Shown: one piece after another, positions 56,787-58,903 of the stretch | Position numbering within the stretch: position 1 is the first letter of the stretch | How the letters are laid out: each line of letters starts with the position of its first letter | Origin: Promethearchaeia archaeon | GTDB taxonomy: Archaea; Asgardarchaeota; Lokiarchaeia; Sigyniarchaeales; SOKP01 | Assembly: GCA_029856045.1 (NCBI GenBank) | Contig: JAHQWG010000035.1 | Span: 1-64,000, forward strand | Direction of reading: 5' to 3' | Length of the DNA: 64,000 nucleotides | Translations under genes and position numbers: made by a program | The notes under the pieces: model-generated | What the model was told of the DNA's origin: nothing | Database searches by the model: none | Seen by the model: only the letters and a program-made list of their open reading frames with translations

Positions 56787-57281
56787 CTACTCTCCTTTCA
56801 ATTTCTTATCAATTCCCATATTCTTCAATAATGTAGAAAGTTCATTTACATCAGGTGCAGCAACCGCTGGTAAACCAAGTTGTTCACGTCGTCTTTCTAT
56901 AGCAGGTTGAGATGGAATTGCTTTAGCATTTTCAAAAATTGTCTTTGCTTGGAGATAATAAAAATCTGGCGCATCTCCATTAGCAACGCTATGATTCTTT
57001 AATAATTTGAAAATCTCGGTTAATTCGATATTCTGTGGGCATACTTCATCGCATGTATCACAAATTGTACAACCCCATATGGCAATTTTTTCTGCTGAAA
57101 ATATTGCATCTTTAAAGCCAAGCAATGCATTTAAAATATTTTGTCTTGGATTGTATGCATTATCAGTAACTTCGGCAACGGGGCAATTATCAGTGCATCG
57201 ATTGCATTGATAACAATATTTGATCACACCACTCATATGCATATCAAGAACTTGCTTTCTAAATTCAAAATCTGTTGCCAT
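56787..57281 (-). CDS. hdrC: Heterodisulfide reductase subunit C
   Basis: This 164-residue protein from ATG 57281 (GTG 57293 would add four residues) has two ferredoxin-type [4Fe-4S] motifs. They are YCYQCNRCTDNCPVAEVT and CTICDTCDEVCPQNIEL, each CxxCxxCxxxCP. It passes electrons between HdrA and HdrB. Further family text: NPRQNILNALLG and GAPDFYYLQAKTIFENAKA-like HSVANGDAPDFYYLQ. Lies directly downstream of the selenocysteine gene vhuU and upstream of hdrB. HdrA is not in the window. Confidence 0.93.
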   Translation of the reverse strand: MATDFEFRKQVLDMHMSGVIKYCYQCNRCTDNCPVAEVTDNAYNPRQNILNALLGFKDAIFSAEKIAIWGCTICDTCDEVCPQNIELTEIFKLLKNHSVANGDAPDFYYLQAKTIFENAKAIPSQPAIERRREQLGLPAVAAPDVNELSTLLKNMGIDKKLKGE

Positions 57282-57327
57282 TTTTTCACACACGTTTTTT
57301 TATTTTTTTCCTGTTTTTTTATTTTTA

Positions 57328-57397
57328 TTGGTTTTAACCCATGCAAGGGCAGTTATATCTAATCTATTTTTTTTATTAGATATTCATCCTAAACCAA
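57328..57397 (-). ncRNA. Nested inverted repeats at the vhuU 3' end: SECIS candidate
   Basis: On the minus strand TTGGTTT (57397-57391, last codons of vhuU) pairs with AAACCAA (57334-57328). Inside that, ATATCTAAT (57383-57375), immediately after the stop, pairs perfectly with ATTAGATAT (57363-57355) around an A-rich 11-base loop. A small GCCC/GGGT hairpin follows at about 57336-57350. A 3' structured element is what an archaeal selenocysteine gene needs. The helix and AA-containing loop recall SECIS elements, but I could not place a full kink-turn (UGA/GA) core. Candidate only. Confidence 0.4.
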
Positions 57398-57533
57398 CAT
57401 TTAATTCACGTGAGTAAATTTCTTTACCGTCCTCATTCACTACGGTGATGTGGGCGGCACACGATAGTCAACAATCATAACATCGGACTATCATTTCTAA
57501 GAGATTTACCACTCCTTCAGGAATATCTTCCAT
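57384..57533 (-). CDS. vhuU: VhuU: selenocysteine-containing small subunit of split [NiFe]-hydrogenase
   Basis: Reading TGA (57470-57468) as Sec gives 49 residues: MEDIPEGVVNLLEMIVRCYD, then CULSCAAHITVVNEDGKEIY, then SRELNVGLG and a TGA stop. Residues 20-28, D-C-U-L-S-C-A-A-H, match the C-terminal DPCxxCxxH nickel-site motif of [NiFe]-hydrogenase large subunits, with Sec at the first Cys ligand and Cys for Pro. The upstream VhuA lacks this motif. Methanococcal Vhu hydrogenase is split in the same way, with Sec in VhuU. Position is in the operon between vhuA (62-base gap) and hdrC. ATG 57533 is preceded by a weak GTGA; an in-frame GTG at 57545 is possible. Ordinary gene callers would miss it. 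Confidence 0.85.
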
Positions 57534-57595
57534 ATTTTTTTTCACTTTTCTCCATTTATTTTAATTATTTAGAGTAAAAAGATCCTCAATTATTT

Positions 57596-58903
57596 TTATT
57601 TTATCCAAGGGTCTGGCAATTTTAATCCCTCCAATGCATTATCCTCAAATATCTGCTTAGCTACATGCATCAACGACTTCTCAATGCCAGCAATATTATG
57701 ATTTGTTGCGACTAACAGATTCAATTTCTTACAAATCCCATCTGCATCAGACCATATATGATATAACAACAATCCTCGAGGCGCTTCTGTAATTGCAATT
57801 CCTTCTGCTTCTCTTGGTTCAATATCTAATGTTTTACAATCCGGGTTGCATATGTCAGAATCACCAAGTAAACTCCCAACTATTTCTATTGCCTCTACTG
57901 TTTCAATTAATCGAGCCCAATGATATGCAAACGTATGATGAATAAGATCAGTTCCAATTTTAGCTCTCATAGCTTTTAATGCCTCATCCGCTAGTGGAGT
58001 AGCCATTTTATCAACACAATTAATCCTTGCTAAACAATTAGCACGATATATTCCATCTGGATAACCAGCGGGCTTATAATACATATGAGTTGCATATGAA
58101 TGAGCTGGAACATGTTCTCCTAAGGCATCTAAATAGTTATGAACATCATAATCTATTTTTTTACCTTCTAAATCAACTATACGAATATCTCCTTCGTAAA
58201 TATCATGAACTCCATTATTTGTCATCCCAAGATAATAAGTTGGAACGACCCCGACATTTGCTATTACATCCCAATAATCTTCTACTACTTTTAATCCAAT
58301 CTCTACAGTCTTTTTTGTAAATTCAACTTGTTCTGGAATTTGTTTAAGAAACTTTTGTCGAACATCCTCATCCATCGGTTTTTTCATACCTCCGACGATT
58401 GCTGAAATAGGATGTACAGATTTTCCACCAATCTCGGCACATAATTTCTGTCCGAAATCCATCATCTTTAAAGCCATTGCCCCAACATCAGGCATCTTAT
58501 TAATGACATAAACTATATTTCTTAATGCTGGATCTGCAAATGGACCAACTAAAAAGTCAGGTGCAGCTAATGCATAGAAATGCAATAAATGCGAGGAATA
58601 TTGTTTTGCATTTATCAATAATTTTCTCAATTTTAATGCTGGTGTTGGAATTTGAACATTCCATGCATCCTCAACAGCCTTAGTTGGAGTTAAATGATGA
58701 GGTATTGGACAAATACCACAAATTCTAGTAGTTATTCTGGGTACATGCTCACAATATCGCCCTTCACAAAACTTTTCAAAAAATCTAGTTGATGTGACAT
58801 TAAATTGAGCATCTTTAACTTTTCCATCATCTCCAATAACGATCCTGAGTCCTCCGTGTCCCTCAAGCCGAGTTATTGGTTCTACTATTATTTCTTTTAC
58901 CAT
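57596..58903 (-). CDS. vhuA: F420-non-reducing [NiFe]-hydrogenase large subunit (VhuA/MvhA), C-terminally split
   Basis: This 435-residue large subunit starts IIVEPITRLEGHGGLRIVI, the L1 region with RxxGH. It has TRICGICPIPHHLTPTKAVE, the L2 motif whose two Cys bind Ni and Fe. It ends GLKLPDPWIK, with the protein stopping right where a normal subunit has DPCxxCxxH. The last two metal ligands must therefore come from another chain, supplied by VhuU (57384-57533). Other family text: AHSYATHMYY and EAPRGLLLYHI. Belongs to the Mvh/Vhu type (group 3c) that feeds H2 electrons to Hdr. Three bases separate it from vhuG. Confidence 0.92.
   Translation of the reverse strand: MVKEIIVEPITRLEGHGGLRIVIGDDGKVKDAQFNVTSTRFFEKFCEGRYCEHVPRITTRICGICPIPHHLTPTKAVEDAWNVQIPTPALKLRKLLINAKQYSSHLLHFYALAAPDFLVGPFADPALRNIVYVINKMPDVGAMALKMMDFGQKLCAEIGGKSVHPISAIVGGMKKPMDEDVRQKFLKQIPEQVEFTKKTVEIGLKVVEDYWDVIANVGVVPTYYLGMTNNGVHDIYEGDIRIVDLEGKKIDYDVHNYLDALGEHVPAHSYATHMYYKPAGYPDGIYRANCLARINCVDKMATPLADEALKAMRAKIGTDLIHHTFAYHWARLIETVEAIEIVGSLLGDSDICNPDCKTLDIEPREAEGIAITEAPRGLLLYHIWSDADGICKKLNLLVATNHNIAGIEKSLMHVAKQIFEDNALEGLKLPDPWIK

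Follow-up and report, generated by a model that had tools for sequence, protein, structure and literature searches.

The element at the 3' end of vhuU, which spans 57326-57399 on the minus strand of the window (the whole 64,000-nucleotide stretch analysed), is very probably a eukaryote-like SECIS of the Asgard kind that carries a conserved extra hairpin and is three-armed. The full explanation derived from the sequence, that a SECIS folded as a three-way junction would enable selenocysteine (Sec) to be inserted at the in-frame UGA of vhuU, is given a probability of roughly 0.87. As a SECIS the element is of an already known kind, and its third helix is not described in the literature as far as this was searched. 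The SECIS elements of Asgard archaea are cited as connecting the selenocysteine coding of archaea with that of eukaryotes, and the puzzle of this link is that no SBP2 homologue is known in archaea, according to the text of PMC9723677 and PMC9499178. If these elements form three-way junctions in which the third helix is conserved, the search pattern in print covers only a part of the element, and the intermediate cannot be taken as just an early form of the eukaryotic SECIS. The three-helix layout is also a fuller signature for the finding of Asgard selenoprotein genes, and the third helix bears on the evolution of the eukaryotic signal.

The gene order on the minus strand is that of a split hydrogenase, vhuA/mvhA (58903-57596, from the list of open reading frames) being followed downstream by vhuU (57533-57384). 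The frame at 57596-58903 we take to be a hydrogenase large subunit without its C-terminal piece, which vhuU supplies. The vhuU frame runs from an ATG at 57533 to a UGA stop at 57386-57384, and an inner ATG at 57494 may be the true start. With TGA read as U, the translation of this frame is MEDIPEGVVNLLEMIVRCYDCULSCAAHITVVNEDGKEIYSRELNVGLG. Its single in-frame UGA (57470-57468, residue 22 of the translated frame) falls in the motif RCYDCULSCAAH, and the element lies about 80 nt downstream of it.

A search for relatives gave a VhuU match at E <=0.01 in 189 of 227 Asgard-phylum genomes, Cys forms and full hydrogenases included; the genomes compared are mostly metagenome assemblies. Among 110 fetched loci a script recognised 101 Sec-UGA vhuU genes, 61 of them from the window family and 40 others. 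Nine vhuU-type loci whose pattern was not recognised were left out; three are of Cys type, and L058 belongs to the window family. The in-frame TGA of the window gene recurs at the same place in the relatives, and the Sec UGA is present in 101/101 of the genes that the script recognised. The codon directly after it is CUA (57467-57465 in the window) in 60/61 family vhuU and in 21/40 other vhuU. At other mostly-leucine positions of vhuU, CUA is found in 8/61 genes (codon +22) and in 1/61 (codon +26). UGA-CUA is a classic context of stop-codon readthrough.

The two nested inverted repeats noticed in the preliminary description of this DNA are perfect and lie where it had placed them. The inner one, ATATCTAAT/ATTAGATAT (57355-57363 with 57375-57383), forms the upper stem (NC helix), whose 5' arm is 57375-57383 and which is closed by an A-rich apical loop of 11 nt, AAAAAAAAUAG (57364-57374). 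The outer one, TTGGTTT/AAACCAA (57328-57334 with 57391-57397), grows to a lower stem (C helix) of 9 bp, 57391-57399 with 57326-57334. The 3' arm of the lower stem is in the 3' UTR. The structure had been said to begin exactly at the vhuU stop, which is true of its core, the AUGA of the bulged strand (57387-57384) that includes the stop codon, and not of the outer 5' arm, which lies within the last codons of vhuU. This AUGA, correctly seen to precede the inner stem, is kept in the relatives. The partner that had been missed on the other side exists as AA (57354-57353), giving the core AUGA_AA, a variant which the text of PMC11227280 reports for Lokiarchaeia/Helarchaeales. This reading of the partner is one of two features absent from the preliminary description. 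The other is a third helix (T helix), GCCC-UUGCAU-GGGU at 57337-57350, whose arms (57347-57350 with 57337-57340) lie inside the outer stem.

Folding of 57300-57400 (minus strand) with RNAfold pairs both repeats at -18.4 kcal/mol, compared with a mean of -9.23 for dinucleotide shuffles (z -3.80, 0/200 as good). The minimum-energy fold of the window element is a three-way junction. When the element is folded alone, each of the three helices has a mean pair probability above 0.9, that of the third helix being 0.96.

The compensatory changes to be expected in relatives of a SECIS are found. Alignment A1 holds 60 of the 62 window-family vhuU fetched, aligned with MAFFT by sequence alone; L061, cut by a contig end, is omitted from it. 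In A1, 93.8% of the cells are paired, compared with 89.5% after shuffling, and a slide by one column halves the pairing. Changes on both sides are seen at 13/22 pairs, including 8/9 pairs of the upper stem, with 66 double-change cells against 13.4 in the shuffles (0/500 as many). As the sequences are related, the shuffle counts and p values given here are nominal and not strict probabilities. RNAalifold, run on the alignment unprompted, draws three helices at matching places, with the third offset by one column. The core reads AUGA in 55 and UUGA in 5 of the 60 rows, and its partner GA in 34 and AA in 26. Alignment A2 consists of 20 vhuU chosen by eye as alignable from among the 40 that do not belong to the family (19 from family f28 and one from the window order), and has 47 double-change cells against 14.3 (0/500).

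The 5' arm of the lower stem lies in coding sequence, and third positions of vhuU codons that change synonymously covary with the 3' UTR. In A1, a GGC codon goes with G in the 3' UTR in 28 rows and GGT with A in 27, with 4 and 1 rows off the pattern (28/1/4/27, Fisher p 9e-12, nominal as the rows are related). GTT pairs with A in 52 rows or with G in 2, and GTA or GTG with T in 6, with no exceptions (52/0/0/6, p 2.5e-8, nominal, the two T-G rows being omitted from the count).

A parser that requires UGA, (G/A)A and the upper, third and lower helices, with a threshold score of 40, gives the window element 51.5, which 0/300 dinucleotide shuffles reach (best 35.6). At or above the threshold, the three helices are parsed after 162 of 192 Asgard vhuU, vhuD and selD genes (L061 again left out), compared with 5 of 1152 shuffles, six for each gene. 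The counts within and outside the family are 58/60 and 33/40 for vhuU, 22/23 and 10/20 for vhuD, and 24/30 and 15/19 for selD; 30/192 genes are below the threshold, among them 10/20 of the vhuD outside the family. The rows omitted are 9/53 vhuD that were not recognised, one vhuD duplicate, 1/50 selD and 1/7 Cys-VhuD. The core of the 162 parses is AUGA in 147, UUGA in 10 and GUGA in 5, the UGA itself being required by the parser. Its partner is GA in 131 and AA in 31, where only the choice between the two is informative, as (G/A)A was demanded. AAA stands among the first 8 bases of the apical loop in 156/162.

The UGA of the core serves as the stop codon in 86/91 parsed vhuU, but only in 4/32 vhuD and 5/39 selD; AUGA is thus kept without being the stop. 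Two family vhuU (L033 and L064) have a UAG stop a few bases upstream and keep AUGA and the whole element, which is a natural separation of the stop codon from the SECIS core.

The strongest rival explanation is that of an ordinary eSECIS-like element with two stems, in which the internal loop happens to fold into the GC hairpin and this hairpin has no role. In the text of PMC11227280, the Asgard model indeed has two stems with an internal loop. In the window-family vhuU the hairpin shows no covariation: it is almost always CCC/GGG, and its pairing is reached by 163/500 shuffles. Covariation is uninformative there, as the helix is near-invariant. Hairpins of 3 bp are also frequent in shuffled GC-rich segments. 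For this reason, shuffling gave too weak a test of the third helix taken by itself, short GC-rich stretches pairing by chance (seen versus expected: vhuU 99/99 versus 66.0, selD 45/47 versus 24.5, vhuD 34/39 versus 16.8). The blind two-stem parse that accompanied it gave no result in 8/193 genes and was clearly misplaced in about a dozen; twelve misplaced rows were flagged in the test and still counted if parsed. The test was therefore replaced by covariation in alignments made by sequence only and by the parse of all three helices.

Evidence against an incidental fold comes from Lokiarchaeal selD. Alignment A3 contains 24 of the 30 genes fetched (omitted: L160, cut by a contig end; L163, L164, L170 and L175, of another type; L184, without a parse). 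Taken alone, the third helix is paired in 92.0% of the cells of A3 against 74.2% (0/500), with 22 double-change cells against 6.5 (0/500). Double changes occur at 5/5 of its pairs, a measure which 21/500 shuffles match. In A2 they occur at 1 of 4 third-helix pairs; these counts cover vhuU and selD, the mixed vhuD alignment A4 being too uneven to count. Among the 162 elements there are 85 distinct pairs of third-helix arms (different arm lengths being counted apart); the helix is 4-6 bp long in 152 and is 0-2 nt away from the lower stem in 137. Its loop contains GC in 150/162 and GT in 9 more, although GC was not asked for by the parser; the usual loops are UGCAA, CGCAA or UUGCAU. These regularities make a two-stem element with a fortuitous hairpin improbable, and favor the three-armed SECIS.

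Two vhuU of family f26 (L101 and L105) have a long third hairpin, UGGGCCC-AUAUGCG-GGGCUUA, and an atypical lower stem, and score 33.0 and 39.0, under the threshold. The elements of Lokiarchaeal vhuD (L151-L156 and L216-L220) are of two types, one with GAC and a GC hairpin and the other with GAAGAAAUGG-xxGCA-CCAU.

In the genome of the window, the three-helix shape is parsed after all six Sec genes examined, with scores of 48.0-53.7. The five genes other than vhuU are four vhuD and one selD, in which the third helix was seen by eye as well as by the parse. The folds of these elements are less uniform than the parses. The parsed third helix has a pair probability of 0.06 in selD and of 0.02 in the vhuD of contig C15, a point in favor of the two-stem reading; in the folds of both it is drawn in another register, in the C15 vhuD by the minimum-energy fold. 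Averaged over 39 selD, the pair probability of the third helix is 0.57. For the parsed upper stem the values in two other vhuD are 0.28 and 0.23. The fold of the C15 vhuD element does not stand out from those of its shuffles (z -0.24, 75/200).

A 3' end signal, that is a terminator or a stability hairpin without a role in recoding, would agree with the location at the 3' end and with the A-rich tract that follows. The element is found, on the other side, after three unrelated families of Sec genes. The 3' ends of Cys-type vhuD (five from this genome and one from another) give no parse in 5/6 and a score of 32.6 in one, as opposed to 48.0-53.7 for the Sec genes. AUGA is, moreover, retained where it is not the stop. 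An end signal of this sort is very unlikely.

The parser score alone is not decisive, as an unrelated 3' end also scores well. Among 54 other 3' ends of the window (stop-to-stop frames of at least 120 aa) the best score is 46.9, at about 14128 on the minus strand, which we judge to be due to chance in AT-rich sequence. A covariance model of the element, R1, was also used to search the 3.34 Mb genome. The search did not place the SECIS elsewhere: the window copy scores highest (98.8 bits), being a member of the training set, and is followed by the end of hdrA-vhuD on contig C15 (49.4 bits) and then by a match of 18.8 bits (E 1.34). It recovered 1/5 of the other elements, missing the three remaining vhuD and selD. 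Of the Sec loci, 26/47 had an R1 match at the right place with E <=10, and of the Cys-type vhuU loci 0/3, a weak control as one of these has almost no sequence past the gene. R1 is too specific to the vhuU of its own family. Rfam at the gathering threshold has no match in the whole window. A permissive Rfam search of 57200-57560 gave no SECIS family up to E 10, its lone match being PreQ1 with 13.4 bits (E 3.9), under the gathering score. Ten relatives had no Rfam match up to E 1.

Four parts of the Sec machinery are found in the genome. The genes for tRNA-Sec (C1:2268-2356, 61 bits, gathering 47), SepSecS (C1:885-2039, 387 bits; its family PF05889 also matches in 4/14 control genomes) and SelB (C1:5689-6582, 267.7 bits, cut-off 242.25) are clustered within 6 kb on contig C1 (G000:C1:885-6582). 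The SelD gene, with an in-frame UGA, is on contig C44. The same contig carries a locus (L138, G000:C44:55900-59000, minus strand) in which hdrA has at least 3 apparent in-frame UGAs, in AAAUTPR, SIUILG and VEUYAC, and the vhuD after it has two. All five would depend on one element 3' of vhuD, from which the most distant lies roughly 2.2 kb upstream.

A SECIS of the bacterial type would be located at the Sec UGA itself, where GATAGTC/GACTATC (57486-57492 with 57463-57469) is a perfect 7-bp repeat that forms in the long fold and keeps all 7 pairs in 44/61 family vhuU. One of its arms is near-invariant and bears conserved codons, however, and the variation of the other breaks pairs without compensation (one pair in 16/61, another in 9/61). 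The hairpin was rejected as a bacterial-style SECIS as no compensatory change was found, and its chances are even slighter than those of an end signal. That the inverted repeats of the 3' element arose by chance in AT-rich sequence is extremely unlikely, in spite of the control 3' end scoring 46.9, as 0/300 shuffles reach the score of the element and covariation is found in the separate alignments A1, A2 and A3.

The sequence and position of the element and the covariation of its helices are observations. We infer that the element is used as a SECIS from its context, the stop codon of a gene carrying a Sec UGA and a genome that has Sec genes, and from its close agreement with the Asgard eSECIS-like model in print; anatomy and comparative evidence likewise support the candidacy put forward in the preliminary description. 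The element would be transcribed together with vhuU and let the UGA at 57470-57468 be read as selenocysteine. Its lower stem, whose strands come from the final codons of vhuU and from the 3' UTR, would open into two arms. One arm would be the upper stem with its A-rich loop, entered through the non-Watson-Crick quartet AUGA_(G/A)A. The other, on the 3' strand, would be the short G+C-rich hairpin with a loop of the UGCA type. Judging from established knowledge, the SECIS would mark the mRNA, and SelB would deliver Sec-tRNA at the UGA. The third hairpin, capped by the GC(A) loop, might position the element for SelB and Sec-tRNA or for the ribosome, replacing an SBP2-like k-turn protein. The vhuU SECIS presumably works without a protein of this kind, and the absence of SBP2 and the presence of the third helix would be two sides of one arrangement.

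The quartet AUGA_(G/A)A would be the core of a kink-turn, and the extra helix opposite the bulge might turn it into a k-junction. A k-junction is a kink-turn that bears an additional helix on its non-bulged strand, as described in the text of PMC4005666 and PMC10573300 for the TPP riboswitch and DUF-3268. The window element shares with k-junctions the extra helix on the non-bulged strand adjoining the lower helix, a likeness that is one of secondary structure, and its core would correspond to the G.A core of the kink-turn. The third helix lies opposite the bulge, between the A of the n-strand and the lower helix. The sequence would permit tandem sheared pairs, G.A and A.A, with A.A replacing A.G at the second pair. 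The spacing of 0-2 nt in 137/162 elements is a hint of coaxial third and lower helices. A search of the literature for a k-junction in a SECIS found none, and in PMC11227280 the word is confined to the reference list. According to the text of PMC10573300, the two k-junctions tested fold with metal ions, and archaeal L7Ae did not fold them, the third helix being a hindrance at the face where it binds; SBP2 has an L7Ae motif (PMC2746813, in its text). If the Asgard elements are three-way junctions with a conserved third helix, these properties of the two k-junctions offer a structural explanation for the lack of SBP2 that can be tested. It is possible, although doubtful, that the whole class of Asgard SECIS elements consists of k-junctions, in which the third helix would allow kinking in the absence of a k-turn protein and block the face for L7Ae or SBP2. 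The UGA would then be recoded without SBP2, the GC(A) loop would replace the SBP2 contact, and the eukaryotic SECIS would have arisen by loss of the helix, opening this face to SBP2.

The closest known system is the type I Asgard eSECIS-like element that Huang et al. described in 2024 (PMC11227280). Its text describes AUGA (or GUGA) overlapping the stop codon, a (G/A)A partner, an upper stem of 7-15 bp, an A-rich apical loop of 8-20 nt, an energy below -5 kcal/mol and, in frhA (a class there including vhuU), a lower stem with UGG_CCA. The window element shares AUGA at the stop, the (G/A)A partner, here AA, the upper stem (9 bp), the loop (11 nt) and the lower stem with UGG_CCA, and the energy of 57300-57400 agrees with this model; compensatory changes in A1, in A2 and at synonymous codons accompany its helices. 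What it has in addition is the third hairpin, conserved and placed between quartet and lower stem, which the text covered of PMC11227280 does not describe; in the main text of that paper "hairpin" has 0 occurrences. A literature search for a SECIS with a side hairpin, in texts other than the founding 2016 paper (Mariotti et al.), found nothing. Two-stem models are given for Asgard elements in the texts of both PMC11227280 and PMC13188914, and the SECIS of Lokiarchaeota is described, in the texts covered, with a single apical loop. According to the text of PMC11881835, a Lokiarchaeal vhuU SECIS is not functional in Methanococcus maripaludis.

The remark in the preliminary description that SECIS elements from Lokiarchaeota had been described as nearer to the eukaryotic kink-turn type fits an element of the kind known in Asgard archaea. 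With the eukaryotic SECIS, as it is described in the sources covered, the window element has in common a kink-turn quartet of the AUGA_GA type at the base of the upper stem, adenines in the apical loop that do not pair, and the 3' location. The eukaryotic SECIS differs, by description only, in having two stems and one apical loop and in being bound by SBP2; owing to the third helix, the window element is not a two-stem structure with a single apical hairpin. The methanogen SECIS (eaSECIS) has a GAA opposite A core and is a single hairpin, as compared by description only with the texts of PMC9622424 and PMC11881835. For the hdrA/vhuD SECIS of Methanococcales and Methanopyrus, a core of AUGA_(G/A)A is reported. 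It has in common with the window element the site in the 3' UTR and a short GC-clamped stem under a small loop.
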